A DNA stretch of 64,000 nucleotides from Lysobacter alkalisoli (lineage in GTDB: Bacteria; Pseudomonadota; Gammaproteobacteria; Xanthomonadales; Xanthomonadaceae), in contig NZ_CP041242.1 of NCBI RefSeq assembly GCF_006547045.1, positions 354,001 through 418,000 of the forward strand, written 5' to 3'. Below, piece after piece: positions 39,786-48,686 of the stretch; position 1 is the first letter of the stretch, and each line of letters begins with the position of its first letter. The notes below the pieces were generated by a model that was given only the letters and a program-made list of their open reading frames with translations, was not told the origin of the DNA and did no database searches. The translations under genes were made by a program, and so were the position numbers.

Positions 39786-40748
39786 ATGAGCTTTCTTTCG
39801 GTCCAGGGCACCCTGGCCCTCGCCAGCCGCCTGAAGGTGATCAGTGAGCGCAGCTACGACCTGGTCGACCAGGTCTACCGCGAGCATGGCATCGGTTTGC
39901 AGGGGCGCTGGTTCCCGGTGCTGCGGCTGCTGCAGGAGCGCGGACCGCTGAGCGTGGGCGAGATCGCCAAGGAGATCGGCCTGACCCATTCCGCCATCAG
40001 CCAGCTGGCCACCCGGCTCACCCGGGAAGGCCTGCTGCGGCGCGAGCCCGCCCCCGACGACCGCCGGCAGCGGGTGCTCGCCCTGACCGAGCGCTGCCAG
40101 GCCGAGCTCAAGGCCGCCCGTCCGCTCTGGCAGGCCATGCGCGACACCGTTGAGCATCGGCTCATGGACATCGGCGTCGACCTGCTCGACGCCCTGTCGC
40201 GCTACGAGGCCAGCCTGGACGAGCAACCGCTGCCGGCCGAGGTCGCGCGACGACTGCGCCAGCGCCAGGCCGCCCAGGTGCGCATCGTGCCGTTCGCGCC
40301 GCAGTGGCGCGGCGACTTCTACCGGCTCAACGCCGAGTGGCTGGCCAAGTACTTCCAGATCGAGCCGATCGACCACGCCGTGCTGTCCGAACCGGAGAAG
40401 CACGTCCTCGAGCCGGGCGGCGCGATCCTGATCGCCCTGGTCGGCGACGAGGTGGTCGGCACCTGCGCACTGATGGTGGACGCCCCCGGCGTGTACGAGC
40501 TCACCAAGATGGCCGTCACCGAACGCCACCAGGGCCTGGGCATCGGCCGCAAGCTGATGGAAGCCGCGATCGCCGAGTTCAAGCGGCTGGGCGGCCGCGA
40601 ACTGTTCCTCGAATCGCAAAAGCGCCTGCAGCCGGCACTGCGGCTGTACGAGAGCGTGGGTTTCGAACTGCAGCCGGGGGTGAAGCCGGGTACGCATTAC
40701 CAGCGTGCGGATGTGTACATGATCTATCGCGGGCGGCCGCACCACTAG
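39786..40748 (+). CDS. MarR-type regulator fused to a GNAT acetyltransferase
   Basis: Bifunctional protein of 320 residues. Residues 1-150 are a MarR-type winged helix (ISERSYDLVDQVYREHG, SVGEIAKEIGLTHSAISQLA as recognition helix, EPAPDDRRQRVLAL as wing). Residues 165-320 are a GNAT domain with LTKMAVTERHQGLGIGRKLM as acetyl-CoA loop and RLQPALRLYESVGF. Such fusions occur in many proteobacteria; the acetylated substrate may also be the inducing ligand. An inverted repeat just upstream suggests autoregulation. Immediately downstream the base composition drops. Confidence 0.85.
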   Translation: MSFLSVQGTLALASRLKVISERSYDLVDQVYREHGIGLQGRWFPVLRLLQERGPLSVGEIAKEIGLTHSAISQLATRLTREGLLRREPAPDDRRQRVLALTERCQAELKAARPLWQAMRDTVEHRLMDIGVDLLDALSRYEASLDEQPLPAEVARRLRQRQAAQVRIVPFAPQWRGDFYRLNAEWLAKYFQIEPIDHAVLSEPEKHVLEPGGAILIALVGDEVVGTCALMVDAPGVYELTKMAVTERHQGLGIGRKLMEAAIAEFKRLGGRELFLESQKRLQPALRLYESVGFELQPGVKPGTHYQRADVYMIYRGRPHH

Positions 40749-41271
40749 TGGTTCCAGGTTCATCTGTCCCTGTCCACTTCGCCGATGATCACCGGCGGCG
40801 GCCCCGCCAGCGCAATCAGCGGCTGACCCATCGTGCGCTGAGCCTGGCGACATTGGCGGGCGTCTCCGCCGGTGCGTTCTTCACTGGAATCCAGCCAGGA
40901 TCACGTAATATCCTAAAGATCGTCATAACTGAGCCTTGGGGGGGTAGCCTCGTGTCACGTTGGAAAGAGCCTGACCTGGCTCCTCGGACTTGCGCGTGGC
41001 TTGAATCTGGTCCTTCCCGGATGGGCGTACGGAACTAAATCAGCGATAGATGTGGTCCCATCCACACATGTGCCATCAGATCAGTAACCGTACTGTCCTG
41101 TGAGATCTGTCTATCATCCATGATTTATAGGGGTTTCTTTCTCACACCTCCCCATGAGTTGATGAGGCTTATGTCTGAGTGGTACGCTCGGACGCGGCCA
41201 CAGCCGGGCACTGTGCTTCGATCAGTCAACGTAAGGGAGTGCGCGACGATTTTCGTGGCTAGGGGGCGCGT
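40749..41271. other. intergenic left boundary of a low-GC island
   Basis: About 520 bp without a supportable gene. The first ~150 bp still have chromosomal GC and may be the remnant of a broken gene (AETPANVARLSAQR readable on the minus strand). From about 40910 the DNA becomes AT-rich (GTAATATCCTAAAG). A TTTATAGG segment near 41122 could be a -10 region. No integrase, tRNA or flanking direct repeat was found. Confidence 0.5.
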
Positions 41272-42444
41272 ATGAAGAAGAAGGACAGCGCAGATCATCC
41301 GCAAAGAGGTAATGTCAGGACGCACAGCTCCCCCGTGAACGACATTGTATGCGTCGATTTATTCTGCGGTGCCGGCGGGCTGACTCGAGGCCTTATTGAT
41401 GCGGGTATTCGTGTCGTGGCGGGTGTTGATCTCGACGACGCGTGCAAGCACCCCTATGAAACGAACAATGGAAGTGCCTTCCACGCAATCGATGTCGCGA
41501 ACCTGACGTCGTCTGACCTGAGTTCTTGGTTTGGCGATGCGCAAGTGCGCATCTTGGCTGGATGTGCGCCGTGTCAGCCCTTCTCAAGTTACTCGCAGCG
41601 ATACGAGACGATCGGGACAGAGCGCTGGGGGCTGCTGCATCAGTTCGCGCGCTTGGTTCGGGAAGCCAAACCCGACATGGTGACAATGGAAAATGTTCCG
41701 ACTGTCACCAGGCACCTGGTGTTCGACGATTTCATCTCTACATTGAAAGAGCAAGGGTACAAGGTTTGGTTCAAAGTCATCGATTGCGCTGCGTATGGGC
41801 TCCCACAACGTCGCCGCCGCACAGTTCTTCTCGCGTCGCGCTTCGGAAATATCGAGCTGAAAGCGCCATCGAACTCGAAGCAGAGAACTGTCGCTGATGT
41901 ACTCAGAGGGTTGCCTGTACTTCGTCATGGTGGCAGTAATAGGGATGATCCGCTTCATGCTGCATCAGGGCTTTCCCATCTGAACTACGAAAGGATCAAG
42001 GCCTCAAAGCCTGGGGGCACATGGCGTGATTGGCCGAAGCACTTGGTAGCCAAGTGCCATAAGAAGAAGACCGGCAAAACCTACTCAGGTGTCTACGGCC
42101 GCATGAAGTGGAATGAACCCGCGCCGACCCTGACGACACAGTTCTTCGGTTTTGGCAATGGCCGGTTCGGTCATCCCTCACAGGCACGCGGCCTTTCGCT
42201 ACGTGAAGGGGCTATCTTGCAGGGCTTCCCTGAGAACTATTCCTTCGTGCCCAAGGGTGGGGTCATTCAGTTCAAGGTGCTTGGCCGCTTAATCGGCAAT
42301 GCTGTCCCGGTTGATCTTGGGCGTGTCATCGGGGAGAGCATCATTGAGCATGTTAAACAGCACGTCGACCAGCCCTCCTCGCCAACCAATCCTCGTCGAG
42401 GACGGAATGTCGACGCACGGCCGGGCAATTCCGTCCACGCCTGA
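41272..42444 (+). CDS. DNA (cytosine-5)-methyltransferase
   Basis: C5-cytosine DNA methyltransferase of 390 residues with all main motifs. VDLFCGAGGLTRGL is motif I (SAM), GCAPCQPFSSYSQR motif IV with catalytic Cys, MENVP motif VI, GLPQRRRRTVLLAS motif VIII and RLIGNAVP motif X. The variable target-recognition region (about residues 225-300) is short; the recognition sequence cannot be read. As first gene of the island, followed by vsr with a 38-bp overlap, it would methylate host DNA at the sites read by the associated nucleases. Codon use is A/T-richer than in flanking genes. Confidence 0.93.
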   Translation: MKKKDSADHPQRGNVRTHSSPVNDIVCVDLFCGAGGLTRGLIDAGIRVVAGVDLDDACKHPYETNNGSAFHAIDVANLTSSDLSSWFGDAQVRILAGCAPCQPFSSYSQRYETIGTERWGLLHQFARLVREAKPDMVTMENVPTVTRHLVFDDFISTLKEQGYKVWFKVIDCAAYGLPQRRRRTVLLASRFGNIELKAPSNSKQRTVADVLRGLPVLRHGGSNRDDPLHAASGLSHLNYERIKASKPGGTWRDWPKHLVAKCHKKKTGKTYSGVYGRMKWNEPAPTLTTQFFGFGNGRFGHPSQARGLSLREGAILQGFPENYSFVPKGGVIQFKVLGRLIGNAVPVDLGRVIGESIIEHVKQHVDQPSSPTNPRRGRNVDARPGNSVHA

Positions 42445-42847
42445 AGTAACTCGCCGCATGCAGCGGGTTAGGCAGAAAAATACTTCTGCCGAGTCGATCT
42501 TGCGCCGTGAACTTTATGCGCGAGGCGTTCGCTACCGAATCCATGTGCCGGTTCTAACCAAGCCACGTAGGGTCGCAGATATCGCATTCTGTGGTCCGCG
42601 CGTAGCTGTCTTTGTTGACGGGTGCTTCTGGCATGGGTGCCCGCTACATGCGACATGGCCGAAAATGAACGCCGAATTTTGGCGAGCAAAAATCCTCGCC
42701 AATATGGAGCGCGATCGCGACACCAATAAGCGCCTGCAGGCAGACGGCTGGAGGGTCGTGCGCGTCTGGGCGCACGAGCCGCCTGAGCGAGCTGCTGTAC
42801 GGATCGCGAAGATTGTAGAGAAGCGCAAAGCCAGGAATCGAACATGA
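42407..42847 (+). CDS. vsr: very short patch repair endonuclease Vsr
   Basis: Vsr-type nuclease of 146 residues. It nicks at T:G mismatches that arise by deamination of 5-methylcytosine. The family's core is VADIAFCGPRVAVFVDGCFW with the catalytic Asp, followed by HGCPLHATWPKMN. The N-terminal part QKNTSAESILRRELYARG and the late GWRVVRVWAHE also fit. It starts inside the end of the methyltransferase gene with GAGGA just before the ATG, the usual dcm-vsr coupling. An upstream in-frame extension is rejected because it merely reads the methyltransferase in another frame. Confidence 0.92.
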   Translation: MSTHGRAIPSTPEVTRRMQRVRQKNTSAESILRRELYARGVRYRIHVPVLTKPRRVADIAFCGPRVAVFVDGCFWHGCPLHATWPKMNAEFWRAKILANMERDRDTNKRLQADGWRVVRVWAHEPPERAAVRIAKIVEKRKARNRT

Positions 42848-42864
42848 CGGAAGGCTTGTGAGCG

Positions 42865-42984
42865 ATGACCTCCGTCCCATCCGCGAAGGCACCTGATTCG
42901 GGCACGTTCGCCCTCGTGGAGGGCAAGCTATGTCCAACCTATGGTGCCCAAGACGAAGGCTGCCGATCCGGCGAAGAAGATTAA
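42865..42984 (+). CDS. possible short ORF (39 aa) between vsr and the GHKL ATPase
   Basis: An open frame starts MTSVPSAKAPDSGTFALVEG and contains four spaced acidic residues and two Cys at the end (CPTYGAQDEGC). GGAAGG lies 10 bp before the ATG. Coding is unproven: the length is short and other small frames overlap it (for example GTG at 42859). It is listed because it fills most of the 152-bp gap inside the putative operon. Confidence 0.25.
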   Translation: MTSVPSAKAPDSGTFALVEGKLCPTYGAQDEGCRSGEED

Positions 42985-42999
42985 TACAGGGAGGATCCG

Positions 43000-44421
43000 A
43001 TGAAGCTCAGCAAACACACCGCTAAGGCAGTGCCGACGAAACAGTTCTTTGTGTCGATGCTTACTCGCGACATCAGTCTTGACGACGCGATCCTCGATCT
43101 GGTCGACAATTGCCTCGACGGAGCTCTGCGCCTCGCCGAAGGTGGAAAGGTCAATTACGGAAGGCATTTCGTCAAGATCAAGCTGTCGAAGGAGCAGTTT
43201 TCCATTGAGGACAACTGTGGCGGCATCCCTCGCAACGTTGCGATCAACTACGCGTTCAAGATGGGGCGTGACGCCGACGACACGCGCGATGCCGACACCG
43301 AGACGATCGGTATGTACGGTGTCGGTATGAAGCGAGCGCTATTCAAGATGGGCAAGAATGCACTCGTGAAGACGCGACATGGCAATGACACGTTCGAAGT
43401 GGCGATCACTTCCGAATGGCTCGACGACAAGGACTGGGGCGAGCTGCCGATCCGGGAGCCGAGCAACAACAGCGAGAAGCTTTCGAAGCCCGGTACAACG
43501 ATCTTGGTCAAGGATCTCCATCCAGGTGTCGCCAAGCACTTCGAGAACGCAGCATTCGTGAACGAGGTAAAGACTGCTATCTCACACCACTTCACGATGT
43601 TCCTACAGCGCGGCCTCAAGATCGAAGTCAATGGCGAGTCCGTGAAGCCCGTCCACGTCGAAGTCCTCGTCTCCAAGCGTAAAGACGGACCAGCTCCGTA
43701 CGTCTACCAAAAGACGATCGATGGCGTCCTCGTTTCAATCACAGTTGGCTTGAACACGAGCCGTCAGTACGATGTTGACGATGAAGACGCTGAAGGTGAT
43801 TTCGTAGGGCAGCGCAACTCTGCTACCGCCGGCTGGACAGTGCTTTGCAACGATCGCGCAGTCATCGTCGGAGACAAAAGCCGGCTCACGGGCTGGGGAG
43901 ATGGCATTCCGCTGTACCACGACCAGTTCATCGTTATCACCGGCATCATCGAATTCCGCGCAAAGGACGCGAAAAAGTTGCCGGTCACGACCACGAAACG
44001 CGCCCTTGATACATCATCGGACGTCTGGCTTGAGTCGCTTGTGAAGATGAAGGAAGGCATGCGGGCTTGGATCACGTATACGAACCGGTGGAAGAATCAC
44101 CCACGTGAGGATCAGGCGAGCCACTGGGCTGATGCCCGACCAATGTCGCTGAGCAAGGTGATCGAAGCGGTGGCCCCACGTGCGAGTATGAAGAAAGGTA
44201 GCACCGTTCTGGAGTTTGATCCCCGTAAGGTGAAAGGCGCTCTCCCCGAGCCCAAGGGCAGCACTCCGTCATCTCGACGCATTATTTTCTCGCGTCCGGT
44301 CGAAGAGGTGAGGATTGTATCGAGGATGCTCTTCGATGATGCCAATGAGAAGCCGGGTATCGTCGGAGACAAGTGCTTCGAGATCCAACTCGTAAAGGCC
44401 AAGAAGAAGGGGGCTGATTGA
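43000..44421 (+). CDS. GHKL ATPase, MORC/MutL-like
   Basis: ATP-binding protein of 473 residues with the Bergerat (GHKL) fold near the N-terminus. LVDNCLDGALR is the N-box, IEDNCGGIP the G1 box, and ETIGMYGVGMKRALFKMG the G2 box, all within residues 30-120. No histidine-kinase dimerisation helix or gyrase domain is present. The rest (about 130-473) contains TKRALDTSSDVW-like helix segments and no known domain I can name. It has a strong ribosome site GGGAGG. It is coupled to the next gene by TGATG. It most resembles the MORC/MutL-like ATPases associated with restriction-modification loci. Confidence 0.85.
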   Translation: MKLSKHTAKAVPTKQFFVSMLTRDISLDDAILDLVDNCLDGALRLAEGGKVNYGRHFVKIKLSKEQFSIEDNCGGIPRNVAINYAFKMGRDADDTRDADTETIGMYGVGMKRALFKMGKNALVKTRHGNDTFEVAITSEWLDDKDWGELPIREPSNNSEKLSKPGTTILVKDLHPGVAKHFENAAFVNEVKTAISHHFTMFLQRGLKIEVNGESVKPVHVEVLVSKRKDGPAPYVYQKTIDGVLVSITVGLNTSRQYDVDDEDAEGDFVGQRNSATAGWTVLCNDRAVIVGDKSRLTGWGDGIPLYHDQFIVITGIIEFRAKDAKKLPVTTTKRALDTSSDVWLESLVKMKEGMRAWITYTNRWKNHPREDQASHWADARPMSLSKVIEAVAPRASMKKGSTVLEFDPRKVKGALPEPKGSTPSSRRIIFSRPVEEVRIVSRMLFDDANEKPGIVGDKCFEIQLVKAKKKGAD

Positions 44422-45452
44422 TGAGTGGGTCTTCGTTGCCGTACCGGCTACGGCCGAACAAGGCGGTTGACAGAGAGCTGTTCCTCTCGTTGTTGATGCG
44501 TCTCACCCCGAAGCTGGGACTTGAGAAGTACCACTACGTAGGCCTTGGGGGACCGTTCCTTGAGGACTTCCGCCTCCTGCACTCTCGCATTGGCATTGGG
44601 CGCAAGAAGGGCAGCCGCACCGTTGGGCGACTGACTTGCGTGGAGTCCGAGCTAGAGATCCACAAGCGGCAAAGGTTTAACAGGCCAGTGGCGTCCATCA
44701 AATGTGTCCACTCGACTCTTGAGGAGTTTCTGGACCAGACAACCTTCACCACGCCCGCCATTATCTGGTTCGACTACACGACACCCCGTGGCATTGCATT
44801 ACAGATTCAGCGTTTCGCTGAAACGGTCGGGACGATGCCGATCGGAAGTATCCTCCGCGTGACGCTCAACGCGGACCCGGGTTCGTTGGGCGAGCCGCCC
44901 TCGGGCAAGAACCTCTCGGTCGAAGTCGATGGCGAGGCATCTGCAGACCGCGCACACAAGCCGACGAAGGCTGAGTGGCGTTTTCAGCGGTTCAACGAGC
45001 GTTTGGGGAAGTTGGTGCCGAGTGGAGTTTCCGCCGACGCGATGACATTCAGAAAGTACGGCCCGACCATTCTCCGGGTTCTTAAGCTAGCCGTCGAGAA
45101 GCAGGCTCTCAGCTTTGCTGACCGCCGCATCGAGTGGGCGTTGGCCACGCATTACGCTGATGGACAGCCGATGGTGACTGCAGCTCTTGTGGTCTGTTCT
45201 CGCGAAGACTCTGCCGCCGAGAAGCTCATCAAGGACTGGGAGTTCTATGCGACTCCCGACGACCCCCACCGAATTGAGTTACCTGCGCTGTCGTCGCTTG
45301 AGCGGCTCACGATGGAGTCCAACAGCAACGTCCTACGGAAGCTCGGGTTCGATTTGGCTGAGGTCGTCGATTCCAGGCTGGGTGTCGACCCCGTCGCCGT
45401 GTTCAAGAAGTTCTACCGGCTTTACCCGCACTTCTCGCGAGTCGAACTGTAG
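44421..45452 (+). CDS. uncharacterised Rossmann-like partner of the GHKL ATPase
   Basis: Protein of 343 residues, translationally coupled to the ATPase by a 1-nt overlap. It looks like an alpha/beta Rossmann-type fold: YHYVGLGGPFLEDFRLLHS is a glycine-rich first strand-loop, VESELEIHKRQRFNRP carries an acidic second strand and IIWFDYTTP a fourth strand. This resembles SAM-dependent methyltransferases in layout, but the GLGGP loop is atypical and no target-site motif is present. The C-terminal half is helical (FDLAEVVDSRLGVDPVAVFK). I do not recognise a named family; it is always to be considered with the ATPase. No membrane segment or signal peptide. Confidence 0.75.
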   Translation: MSGSSLPYRLRPNKAVDRELFLSLLMRLTPKLGLEKYHYVGLGGPFLEDFRLLHSRIGIGRKKGSRTVGRLTCVESELEIHKRQRFNRPVASIKCVHSTLEEFLDQTTFTTPAIIWFDYTTPRGIALQIQRFAETVGTMPIGSILRVTLNADPGSLGEPPSGKNLSVEVDGEASADRAHKPTKAEWRFQRFNERLGKLVPSGVSADAMTFRKYGPTILRVLKLAVEKQALSFADRRIEWALATHYADGQPMVTAALVVCSREDSAAEKLIKDWEFYATPDDPHRIELPALSSLERLTMESNSNVLRKLGFDLAEVVDSRLGVDPVAVFKKFYRLYPHFSRVEL

Positions 45453-45707
45453 CCAGATAGGGAACAGGGCATGATGATGACAACTGCGGCGGCGCCCGAT
45501 TTTGAGTAGCTCGACGATTTGGAGTCCAATCCCCAACGAGAAGGATCTTGTTCCGAAGATGCGCACTAGCATCCATTCTGCAGAAATATTTACATGGAAG
45601 GAGTGACCAGACCCCTTCGTAGATGGGAAGGTCCATACGAAAGTTGCGGTCATTGATGAGGCGCGTGAGGAATAGGGTCGTGAGGAATGGGGCCGGGTTC
45701 ATTTCCT
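45453..45707. other. non-coding gap between the partner gene and the HNH gene
   Basis: The two flanking genes converge here. Low-GC DNA with only short chance open frames on both strands. I see no terminator hairpin with T-run and no repeat that I could support. Confidence 0.4.
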
Positions 45708-46592
45708 TCATGCCTTGAACCTCTGTAATCGATGCCAGTTCAAGTAGGTAGGGTGCGGCCGCCATTCGGGGCTGTCCGGTAGCAGCAGCTTCCTTTCAGC
45801 CCGGATCAGTTTGTCCAGATCGTTCGGGACGCCGTGAGGCGACAGGAGAATGGTGTAATCGTCATCGAAGGAAAGCAGCCCGCGGTCGAACAGCCAATGC
45901 ACGGTACCGGTCAGCGCGATGCCGTTGCGGACCGTGTCCGGACCATCTTCCTCTACTGGACGGATATGAGCCGCCTGCACCTCGGGGCGGCCACCGCCAT
46001 TGATTAGCCGAAGGCCGGTGACGGCACAAGTGTTGCCATAGGCATTTCGCACATGACGACGGAATGCCGCGTCGCGGAACTTTCGGGACACGACCTGTTC
46101 GACGATGGGGCGCACGACGTACTCCGGAACCTCTTCGGCAACCCGGTTCGGACGCTCCCATGCCTCCAGTTGGGCCGATAGGCCCGCTTGCACAATCCGT
46201 GCGAACTCATCACGTGGGATCAGGCGGACAGAGCGGCCGAATGCGCCGCGATTGGTCGAGCCATCATCTTTTCGAAGCGCGGATTCGTAGTACTCGTCGC
46301 CTTCGCGGAAAGGGACAGGGTGATCGAACTCGAGGAAGTGCTTGAGGTGAGCGTAGTAGTGATCGGGACGCTTGCCGTCGGGCTCGATGCCGACGATTTG
46401 TGCGATTGCGAAGTACGCCTGCCGCCCTGTCGCACTGTTAGGCCCGCTTGTACGGCGCGGCTCGTAGTACAGGACGAAGTCGCCCTTGGCCTGTTCGACC
46501 TGGCGTAGGTAAGTCTTGGGAAAGTGGTACCACGCCTCGATGCGGTCATCGTAGGCAGAGCTTTCGGATGCGGTGAATATTGCGTTTGCCAT
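45708..46592 (-). CDS. HNH endonuclease with PUA/EVE-like N-terminal domain
   Basis: Nuclease of 294 residues. The C-terminal HNH domain is clear: CAVTGLRLINGG, VQAAHIRPVEEDGPDTVRNG and ALTGTVHWLFDRGLLSFDDD, with the three catalytic positions His-Asn-His. The N-terminus (about residues 15-105: WYHFPKTYLRQVEQAKGDF, AYFAIAQIVGIEPDG) resembles PUA/EVE-like readers of modified bases, which would make it a modification-sensing nuclease; that part is inference. Convergent with the ATPase operon, at the right end of the low-GC island. It could instead be the restriction partner of the methyltransferase. Confidence 0.82.
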   Translation of the reverse strand: MANAIFTASESSAYDDRIEAWYHFPKTYLRQVEQAKGDFVLYYEPRRTSGPNSATGRQAYFAIAQIVGIEPDGKRPDHYYAHLKHFLEFDHPVPFREGDEYYESALRKDDGSTNRGAFGRSVRLIPRDEFARIVQAGLSAQLEAWERPNRVAEEVPEYVVRPIVEQVVSRKFRDAAFRRHVRNAYGNTCAVTGLRLINGGGRPEVQAAHIRPVEEDGPDTVRNGIALTGTVHWLFDRGLLSFDDDYTILLSPHGVPNDLDKLIRAERKLLLPDSPEWRPHPTYLNWHRLQRFKA

Positions 46593-46713
46593 GACCCCCT
46601 CCCGTGCAGACCAGGCTACCAGGCTTGCTAATAGGTAAGCGACCCCGGCTCATCTGGCTGAGACGGCGAGGCGCATCTCTGGTTCTGAGACGGTCGCGAC
46701 GGATGCTGGTGGC

Positions 46714-47151
46714 ATGAACGAGATATCTGATGCCGCCGAAGGCGCGCTGGATCACGTGCCTCATGGTCGATTCGAAACGAACGGGCGCCACTGCGTCTTC
46801 GAATACATGTACCGCGACGCCGGCAACTGGAAGACGTACGGGGCGTTGCTGCTATCGGGCGATGCGGGTGATTCCCAGGAAGAGCTGCGGAAGTGCCTGG
46901 AGTGGGGTGATCTGTTTGTGGCCGAGCAGGTCGAGGTGCCTTCGCTGTGCGAGGAGCACTTCATGGCTACTGGTGAAGGTCCGTCGGATCTGGACCATGC
47001 CTATCACGAGTTCGTCGATCTACGGGTGGCCAACGACGAAGAGCTGGCGTCTATGCAGGTGACTGGGTCGCTTGCAGAGCTATTGGTACGCATGCAAACG
47101 GCAGCAGGACGCTGGGACGTGCGCCTGTCGCCGAATTGTTGCTGGGGATAA
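46714..47151 (+). CDS. hypothetical protein, 145 aa
   Basis: Unrecognised protein of 145 residues, acidic, with no membrane segment or signal. RHCVFEYMYRDAGNWKTYGA and FVAEQVEVPSLCEEHF are the most structured-looking parts; four cysteines are present, two of them at the C-terminal end (SPNCCWG). It lies divergently beside the HNH gene and may be the last gene of the island, or the first of the chromosomal side. Base composition is intermediate. Confidence 0.6.
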   Translation: MNEISDAAEGALDHVPHGRFETNGRHCVFEYMYRDAGNWKTYGALLLSGDAGDSQEELRKCLEWGDLFVAEQVEVPSLCEEHFMATGEGPSDLDHAYHEFVDLRVANDEELASMQVTGSLAELLVRMQTAAGRWDVRLSPNCCWG

Positions 47152-47157
47152 AGGCGC

Positions 47158-47517: not shown

Positions 47518-47694
47518 CGGACACCCCCCATGCCCTGATACGACGGGCCGACGGTAGCACCCGGTGGGTGCTGAAGAGTGAATGGGCGAGGGCGTCCGCG
47601 CTGATCCGGCGTGCAGGGCGGTCATTCCTTGCGGATGGCCTGGAAAAGGGAAAAAGGGGTATATTGGCCTCACCCTCAAGGCGCTGGAGTGACC

Positions 47695-48051
47695 ATGGCC
47701 CTGATCCAGAAACTCGATGCGATCGAAGACCTGCCCCGCACGCCGGCCTCCGACGTGAAGAAGCTCGGCTGGCGTGGCGTGATGAAGGTTGTCGGCCGCG
47801 AGGGCCGGGTGGTGGTGACCAACCACAGCGAGCCCGAGGCCGTCATCCTCTCGATCGAGGATTACGGCGCCATCGTGCGTGCCCTGCATGAAGCCGGCGC
47901 CAGCAGTGATGCGGTGCTGGAGACGCTCCGCCAGCGCTTCGACGAGCGCCTGGCGTCGCTGCAGGCGGACGATGCCGCCGGCCGCCTGCGTTCGGTGATG
48001 GACGCGCCGGCCAGGCTCGGCGGCAAGGTCAAGGCCGGGGCGGGGCATTGA
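47695..48051 (+). CDS. Phd/YefM-type antitoxin
   Basis: Antitoxin of 118 residues. VKKLGWRGVMKVVGREGRVV and VTNHSEPEAVILSIEDYGAI give the Phd/YefM fold that binds DNA and toxin. The C-terminal third (RQRFDERLASLQADD) is helical and would wrap the toxin. Its stop overlaps the toxin start (TTGA), the usual coupling. A TATATT -10-like element lies at 47660. The ATG after CTGGAGTGACC is chosen; the open frame extends 84 bp upstream without family sequence. Autorepression of the operon is expected for the family. Confidence 0.85.
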   Translation: MALIQKLDAIEDLPRTPASDVKKLGWRGVMKVVGREGRVVVTNHSEPEAVILSIEDYGAIVRALHEAGASSDAVLETLRQRFDERLASLQADDAAGRLRSVMDAPARLGGKVKAGAGH

Positions 48052-48686
48052 CGGCGCGCCCCGTTCTCTTTGTCCTCGCCGGGGTGAACGGTGCGGGCAA
48101 GAGTTCGGTCGGCGGTCATCTGTTGCAGGCGGCGGGGCTGGCCTGGTTCAACCCCGACACCTTTGCGCGCGAGCTGCGTGCCGAAACCGGCTGCGACCCG
48201 GTCGAGGCCAATGCGGTCGCATGGCAGGAGGGCATGCGCCGTCTGGATGAGGCGGTCGCGAATGGCACCCACCATGCCTTCGAGACCACGCTGGGCGGCC
48301 GCACCGTTCCGGCCAGGATCAAGGCGGCCGCCAGTACGCACGACGTGCTCATGTGGTTCTGCGGCCTGTCTTCGCCGGAGCTGCACCTGGCCCGTGTGAA
48401 GGCCCGGGTGGCGGTGGGCGGGCACGACATCCCCGAGGCCAAGGTCCGCGAGCGTTATCCGGCGGCGCTGCAGAACCTGATTGCGCTCATGCCCTGTCTG
48501 GCGCACCTGCGGGTGTATGACAACAGCGTCGAGGCCGGCGCCGGGCAGGCGATACCGGACCCCGTGCTGGTTGCGGAAATGAAGTCGGGCAAGCTCGTCT
48601 GGCCTGCCGACCTGCAATCGCTCGGCAACACGCCGGACTGGGCCAAGCCGCTGGTGGAAGCGGCGCTTTCGATGAGCCTGCGCTAG
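48048..48686 (+). CDS. zeta toxin family kinase
   Basis: Zeta-type toxin of 212 residues that phosphorylates UDP-N-acetylglucosamine-type peptidoglycan precursors with ATP. Walker A is AGVNGAGKSSVGG at residues 10-22; WFNPDTFARELR and THHAFETTLGGRT form the substrate site; ARVKARVAVGGHDIPEAKVR is the Arg-rich lid. The start is TTG overlapping the antitoxin stop. Unlike classical epsilon-zeta systems, the antitoxin here is of Phd type. A UDP-GlcNAc target is known for other zeta toxins, not tested here. Confidence 0.85.
   Translation: MTARPVLFVLAGVNGAGKSSVGGHLLQAAGLAWFNPDTFARELRAETGCDPVEANAVAWQEGMRRLDEAVANGTHHAFETTLGGRTVPARIKAAASTHDVLMWFCGLSSPELHLARVKARVAVGGHDIPEAKVRERYPAALQNLIALMPCLAHLRVYDNSVEAGAGQAIPDPVLVAEMKSGKLVWPADLQSLGNTPDWAKPLVEAALSMSLR

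Follow-up and report, generated by a model that had tools for sequence, protein, structure and literature searches.

The island and its genes

A block of five open reading frames (ORFs) at positions 41272 to 46592 of a 64,000-nucleotide stretch of Lysobacter alkalisoli DNA (here called the window, whose numbering is used throughout; it belongs to one contig of a 3.86-Mb genome) was singled out in an earlier note, made from the sequence alone, as a candidate defense or restriction locus. All five ORFs are present at the positions given there. They encode a C5 DNA methyltransferase, a Vsr-type endonuclease, a GHKL ATPase of the MORC type, a partner protein of the Methyltransf_35 family, and, on the opposite strand, an HNH endonuclease. 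The note had read these five as one system; we find that the methyltransferase, the ATPase, and the partner recur as a unit, which is probably a mobile defense module.

The first core gene (41272-42444, forward strand) encodes a C5 methyltransferase (PF00145, 6e-54) that exceeds the NCBIfam cut-off for TIGR00675, has DrmMII as its best PADLOC model (9.5e-85), and carries PCQ and ENV in its translation, which we take to be C5 methyltransferase motifs. The genome holds two C5 methyltransferase genes, three of the four matches sharing one frame of 622 amino acids (aa). On the same strand follows a frequent accessory, the Vsr-type endonuclease gene (TIGR00632, 3e-32), and with both products above their NCBIfam cut-offs the two adjacent genes have the makeup of a dcm-vsr pair. 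The longest Vsr ORF begins at 42299, but the ATG at 42407 is the more plausible start (42407-42847), which gives 146 aa, against a cluster median of 149, and therefore an overlap with the methyltransferase gene of 38 nucleotides (nt) rather than 146 nt. The overlapping methyltransferase and Vsr genes of the earlier description thus stand, in their families and in the fact of overlap.

The second core gene (43000-44421, forward strand) encodes the ATPase, with matches to HATPase_c_3 (PF13589, 3e-11) and to the phage family phrog_20521 (8e-136). Membership of the MORC family (GHKL plus S5) is defined by a GhXhhpXXRhl motif in the S5 domain (PMC2292703), and the window ATPase has such a motif, GWTVLCNDRAV, at residue 278. 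Of 72 relatives, 67 have the motif at one alignment column; by expectation there would be 0.025 occurrences per protein of such length, and the 1813 other proteins that the loci encode have 31 matches. The ATP-site residues of GHKL proteins (D36, N37, D71, G74, G75, G104, G107, G109, and K333) are present in 72/72 relatives. An AlphaFold2 model built on an alignment from the loci (predicted local distance difference test score [pLDDT], 87.7) lies nearest to SMCHD1 and TRAP1/Hsp90, and the structure matches listed include MORC3 and MORC2; a profile of the ATPase run against solved structures places MORC3 first, although weakly (0.007). Together, motif, model, and profile bear out the original suggestion of a MORC- or MutL-like protein as MORC-like.

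The third core gene (44421-45452, forward strand) encodes the partner and overlaps the ATPase gene by 1 nt, as had been described, its ATG at 44421 lying within TGATG. The partner had been called unrecognized, which it is not: it matches PF20553 (Methyltransf_35) at 271.8 bits (cut-off, 27; E, 1e-80), as well as phrog_19983 (5e-57), which, like phrog_20521, is a phage family of unstated function. Its predicted Rossmann-like character, in contrast, held. An AlphaFold2 model, again from an alignment of the loci (pLDDT, 92.8), has the fold of a class I S-adenosylmethionine (SAM) methyltransferase according to Foldseek, with the tRNA methyltransferase Trm1 first (3e-7) and O-methyltransferases next; among 337 matches with E≤0.001 Trm1 ranks first, and small molecules are the substrates of many among the 50 listed. 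Conserved residues G44 (78/83), E76 (81/83), and D119 (83/83) appear to fit the predicted SAM site as glycine loop, acid after strand 2, and motif IV acid, respectively, and fold and residues together have the hallmarks of a class I SAM methyltransferase. R12, K15, R19, and R84 are conserved in 83/83. The partner profile had no match among solved structures up to E=10. The single-protein structure predictions that the earlier note had proposed gave a GHKL/MORC-type ATPase and a methyltransferase fold, and the listed fold matches of the two proteins are GHKL ATPases and methyltransferases, with no nucleases among them. Neither protein has a match at E≤1 in PADLOC or NCBIfam, and on that basis we rejected a system known to either library.

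The block lies in a variable island (40737-47152), delimited by flank alignment and by composition. GC content in 1-kb bins is 0.54 to 0.61 across 41 to 47 kb versus 0.62 to 0.70 in the flanking bins, in agreement with the low-GC island first described. The left-flank gene is kept in two same-genus genomes (L143 and L144; 92 to 93% identity), whose alignments end at 40732 and 40736; no match to the window resumes before 47153, and from there on the matches are short and reordered, with different genes in between. In a search of six further genomes of the genus, neither the partner nor the ATPase had a match. To the right of the island, at 47611-48686, lie two overlapping genes, one for a Phd/YefM antitoxin-like protein (below the cut-off) and one for an AAA_33/zeta-toxin-like kinase.

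A three-gene unit and its settings

Relatives of the pair formed by ATPase and partner were collected in a genome scan, which found 83 and of which the best 80 were kept as loci (numbered with the prefix L), and in a viral scan, which gave 21 loci. Since the genome scan matched two conserved peptides only and 80 of 83 hits were kept, the sample leans toward the window's own clade; loci duplicated between genomes (L017, L018, L020 to L023, and L028) are excluded from the tally of 80 and 21, and counts of methyltransferase, Vsr, and HNH neighbors are from genome-contig loci unless viral loci are named. The ATPase gene lies directly upstream of the partner gene in 79 of the 80 genome loci, the exception (L082) being a partial match, and the junction between them measures at most 60 nt in 90 of 94 loci. 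Among 198 genomes of the family, the partner occurs in 8, with the ATPase adjacent in all 8; the ATPase profile matches 9, namely those 8 and one weak match. Occurrence is sporadic throughout (8/198, 3/369, and 5/398 genomes in three partly overlapping samples), which led us to reject an ordinary housekeeping dcm-vsr locus.

At the 53 genome loci outside DISARM operons, a C5 methyltransferase gene lies within 5 kb in 46, a Vsr gene in 22, and a relative of the window HNH gene in 6; where at least 5 kb is available on both sides, the counts are 31/34, 14/34, and 4/34. In the viral loci the methyltransferase is present in 21/21 and the ATPase in 19/21, the contigs of the remaining two (L032 and L046) stopping at the partner gene, and Vsr and relatives of the window HNH protein each occur in 0/21. 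The conserved unit is the C5 methyltransferase, the ATPase, and the partner, the last two being coinherited across phyla, usually with the methyltransferase. The search for the adjacent pair across genomes, which the earlier note had suggested as a check, thus upheld the pair and its methyltransferase; the same counts for Vsr and HNH speak against five genes working as one system with this HNH nuclease.

Several variations on the unit deserve mention. In L096, two ATPase-partner copies on opposite strands flank one methyltransferase gene. In eight loci (L087, L089, L093, L094, L095, L098, L102, and L126), a second, larger GHKL ATPase with the MORC motif (546 to 610 aa) is encoded near the cassette, the one in L089 ending in a Hypoth_Ymh domain (PF09509). 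In L024, L118, and L120, the cassette adjoins a pyruvate dehydrogenase E1-like gene, possibly an insertion hotspot (two of these three genomes are represented a second time, by L020 and L022).

The settings of the unit are informative. DISARM was called where the pair had three or more of DrmA, B, C, D, and MmeI around it, and by this rule the pair lies within a DISARM operon in 27 of 80 genome loci; the order in Microvirga is dcm-vsr-drmD-MmeI-ATPase-partner-drmA-DUF1998-drmC. A C5 methyltransferase is found in 20 of the 27, a count that the flank length of 10 kb limits. A tree was built by a quick method, with SH-aLRT as its only support values, from 70 rows that have both proteins at full length, near-identical rows having been dropped. 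In it the window groups with a DISARM copy from Nguyenibacter and a non-DISARM copy from Arenimonas, and the surrounding clade has 14 DISARM rows among its 18. No fewer than six changes of the DISARM label are required on this tree, in which 46 rows are non-DISARM (two of them uncertain or partial in the flank; L068, the contig of which ends just past the partner gene, has an uncertain stand-alone status), and such changes indicate that the module moved between DISARM-embedded and separate states. No drmA, B, C, D, or MmeI gene lies beside the window cassette, and the window genome has no DrmA beyond a 17-bit match in another protein. The window version probably left a DISARM operon, although the tree alone does not give the direction.

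The second setting is the P2 prophage. Of the 21 viral contigs, 15 have the cassette between the P2-type portal and replication-A genes (the anchor families were checked by PHROGs in representative contigs and extended to the others by clustering), an interval that is a published reservoir of antiviral genes (PMC9122126 and PMC9519451), with 169 P2-hotspot systems tabulated in the first of these. In Escherichia coli 7/2 and EC77, the ATPase, the partner, and a convergent methyltransferase are the only genes annotated between portal and replication endonuclease, and no nuclease is annotated in that interval. A second version of the cassette is found in the lambda-like prophage Sp10 of E. coli O157:H7 Sakai (ECs_1953-1955, L146:2127-5626), where the genes are annotated as a DNA methylase and two hypothetical proteins; homology and the MORC motif were checked. 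Among 5426 complete E. coli genomes, 47 hold at least 80% of the P2 version and 172 at least 80% of the Sakai version; the genomes with any match number 220, or about 4%, which as 47 plus 173 is consistent with disjoint sets. Among annotated phage records the pair was found only in the inovirus PfAC20, next to a methyltransferase gene, and among plasmids only in Microvirga terrae. The earlier note had asked whether the pair sits in defense islands, and its occurrence in the P2 hotspot and in DISARM operons favors this.

Nuclease neighbors

Is there a nuclease that belongs to the unit? We ran a Pfam scan on proteins of at least 130 aa encoded inside the block or at most 300 bp from it in the 53 non-DISARM genome loci, leaving transposases, integrases, and Vsr out of the tally. 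The survey yielded 53 proteins in 35 of the loci and none in 18; some contigs end near the cassette, and several neighbors have no Pfam match of any kind. Within these limits, 41 of the 53 loci have no Pfam-recognized nuclease in the block or within 300 bp, and 12 have a nuclease-like neighbor. The kinds vary: HNH_2 in six loci (L076, L089, L104, L114, L118, and L122); a subthreshold HNH_5 match in L096; NERD in L076, L091, L097, and L100, with a fusion to UvrD-type helicase domains in two of these proteins; a NotI-like protein in L091, alongside NERD; an EcoRII-like protein in L112; and an Eco29kI-like protein in L123. In L112 and L123 a second methyltransferase is encoded beside the nuclease gene, so these two nucleases may belong to separate systems. 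All other neighbors are integrases, a resolvase, transposition proteins, or housekeeping enzymes, or are unmatched. Based on these counts we rejected a single hidden nuclease as a regular neighbor: a nuclease is optional and of varying kind, and no particular one forms part of the set. As a separate observation, the partner gene in Arenimonas, near kin of the window, is followed by a gene (L051:11217-11951) for a 244-aa protein that has no Pfam match but has relatives near the pair in L054, L087, and L096, the last being the one with the subthreshold HNH_5 match.

The HNH gene of the window (45708-46592, reverse strand) converges on the partner gene and has a clear HNH domain (HNH_2, 3e-11), the HNH half also matching TagI (6ghs) at 3e-5. 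Its N-terminal half is weakly EVE-like, with matches below the cut-off both here (0.25) and in the Stenotrophomonas relative (0.003). Full-length relatives that share this N-terminal half adjoin the cassette in Stenotrophomonas (50% identity) and in a Latescibacteria metagenome-assembled genome (31%), and HNH proteins in four further loci are alike over the HNH half only. Nucleases of the EVE-like or TagI type are expected to cut modified rather than unmodified DNA, and the window protein is possibly modification dependent. We rejected the HNH gene as a core gene (relatives in 6/53 loci, only two of the six full length) and read it, from these comparisons, as an apparently optional and separately recruited neighbor. 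Type II restriction-modification would pair the methyltransferase with a linked cognate endonuclease; the HNH protein of the window, like the nuclease-like neighbors in 12 of the 53 non-DISARM relatives, might or might not be such an enzyme. Of the linked nuclease that had been proposed, the convergent gene itself is confirmed and its role as a fixed part of the system is not; the other kinds of nuclease nearby, counted with HNH_2 among the 12 of 53, favor the earlier proposal.

Predicted function and relation to known systems

That the pair is found within DISARM operons and at the antiviral hotspot of P2 argues for defense, and we are fairly confident in predicting that the three genes form a defense unit. 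Our fuller proposal, which we judge probable, is that of a mobile three-gene module in which the methyltransferase would mark self and unmarked DNA would be the target of a MORC clamp acting together with the partner. Based on their families, the C5 methyltransferase is predicted to mark host DNA, and Vsr, where present, to repair the T:G mismatches that arise from deaminated 5-methylcytosine. Eukaryotic MORC proteins clamp DNA, which agrees with the fold of the ATPase, and we posit that ATP would cause the MORC subunit, like its eukaryotic relatives, to dimerize as a clamp that encircles DNA. The partner, whose fold and conserved positions would suit the binding of SAM, could gate this clamp or add a mark, such that closure would occur on DNA without the self mark. 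The outcome may be the block or compaction of invading DNA or its hand-over to whatever nuclease or helicase is available; candidate executors are DrmAB in DISARM, the EVE-HNH protein in the window, and other nucleases elsewhere, and a nuclease beside the module may be such an executor. We offer this clamp mechanism tentatively, as a possibility on which we would not yet wager.

For the E. coli P2 cassettes, in which no nuclease is annotated, the simplest reading would be a block or compaction of unmarked DNA, or the action of host nucleases. MORC proteins silence mobile DNA in animals and plants. We speculate that a bacterial counterpart might be at work here, a nuclease-free immunity in which the clamp entraps and silences unmarked DNA; this we regard as doubtful, and the various nucleases found close to 12 of the 53 chromosomal copies have led us to trim the modest chance that we had given it. 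If the set restricts without a nuclease, then a direct link would exist between bacterial immunity and eukaryotic MORC silencing, and the presence of a compact, near-obligate MORC and PF20553 pair in an E. coli prophage hotspot opens the question to standard coliphage assays.

Several observations weigh against the proposed module. Given the 12 of 53 loci with a nuclease-like neighbor, the real outcome may be that a recruited nuclease cleaves the DNA. No C5 methyltransferase lies nearby in three loci whose flanks are complete (L105, L127, and L128). The correlation of pairwise distances is 0.89 for the ATPase with the partner; for the partner with the methyltransferase it is 0.45 (57 loci; reached in 0/999 shuffles) and, within the window clade, -0.22, a value to which the odd locus L068 contributes. 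In L068, a pair near that of L052 (partner 14% different) is joined to an unrelated methyltransferase (77% different). The distances indicate that the ATPase-partner pair is the unit and the methyltransferase exchangeable. This weighs against the idea that the pair is tied to a single, fixed cognate site, and any matching of specificity between pair and methyltransferase is only hypothetical. L068 is also of interest in itself, as a natural methyltransferase swap on a pair close to DISARM-type copies. At what we take to be the position of the catalytic Glu of GHKL proteins in the N box, 71/72 relatives have Asp (Asp33 in the window), as do the eight larger second ATPases, and ATP hydrolysis may consequently be slow. 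In the text of PMC2292703 we did not find the catalytic Glu among the criteria of the MORC family. Finally, the template modeling (TM) scores of the fold matches are moderate for both ATPase and partner, about 0.3 to 0.5 in the lists.

Other explanations have to be weighed against the same evidence. The partner could be the effector of an abortive infection system, methylating RNA, protein, or nucleotides once the MORC protein senses foreign DNA, with the C5 methyltransferase only preventing self-activation; a full class I fold with conserved positions fitting a SAM site, Trm1 as the best fold match, and the 41 of 53 loci without a recognized nuclease nearby are all consistent with this. Trm1, however, is the first of many matches, a good part of those listed act on small molecules, and eukaryotic MORC proteins act on DNA; we consider abortive infection unlikely. 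A role outside defense, as an epigenetic or antirestriction module with which prophages or islands methylate their own DNA and regulate expression, would suit elements able to gain from self-methylation and the lack of a fixed restriction enzyme. We think it quite unlikely, given the DISARM-embedded loci (27/80), the placement in the P2 antiviral hotspot, and the several chromosomal cassettes that adjoin housekeeping genes (NifU, peptidase, pyruvate dehydrogenase, and ALAD) rather than phage genes.

Restriction in which each cassette works with its adjacent nuclease, whether HNH, NERD, or NotI-, EcoRII-, or Eco29kI-like, draws on the two full-length and four partial HNH relatives and on the other nucleases named above. 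It is made very unlikely by the many loci without a recognized nuclease, by the absence of window-HNH relatives from all 21 viral loci, by the second methyltransferases of L112 and L123, and by the modified DNA that an EVE-like nuclease is expected to cut. That the window locus is a decaying DISARM remnant, its helicases lost, would accord with the nesting of its pair among mostly DISARM rows and with the lack of a convincing DrmA in the genome. All four cassette ORFs are intact, however, and non-DISARM copies recur in many lineages, with the label changes noted above, so that a remnant seems highly improbable.

How, then, does the proposed self-marking module of methyltransferase, MORC ATPase, and partner relate to what is already described? 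The earlier note had held that its proposal would fail if the pair usually stood alone in housekeeping contexts or fell within a named system; neither is the case, and PADLOC, NCBIfam, and our literature searches gave no name for the pair. We found no paper on a pair of MORC and PF20553 proteins or on its placement in DISARM or the P2 hotspot among open-access texts without their supplements, and the table of PMC9122126 may list the cassette. DISARM (PMC9142583) shares its context, since drmD-MmeI-drmA-drmB-drmC operons with dcm, and often vsr, hold the pair in 27 of 80 loci, but the window locus lacks the drmA and drmB core. The HEF_HK (PF19191)/Response_reg_2 (PF19192) duplet (Bellieny-Rabelo 2021, PMC8011034) likewise combines a C5 methylase, Vsr, and a HATPase_c_3 protein with a second small partner gene; its partner, however, is a receiver, whereas that of the window has a methyltransferase fold, and we rejected the duplet because PF19191 and PF19192 are absent from the Pfam matches of the window proteins at E≤1. 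GHKL-Shedu VcSduA (PMC12137116) also deploys a GHKL ATPase in phage defense but is described as a single protein with its own PD-(D/E)xK nuclease domain, unlike the window set.

A close precedent is that of the paraMORC neighborhoods (Iyer, Abhiman and Aravind 2008, PMC2292703). That study predicted prokaryotic MORC ATPases in restriction neighborhoods, in the company of C5 methylase, Vsr, and HNH genes, recorded versions that lack a helicase as well as co-occurrence with HNH, and proposed that MORCs in restriction operons loop DNA. In 2021 these ATPases were still termed poorly understood (PMC8011034). The MORC-motif GHKL ATPase, the C5 methylase, and Vsr are shared with the window; in the text of the 2008 article we found no Methyltransf_35 partner, DISARM, or P2 hotspots, whereas the partner is near-obligatory in the set described here. 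MORC ATPases in restriction neighborhoods were thus already predicted, and what appears to be new is their pairing with a PF20553 protein, together with a C5 methyltransferase.

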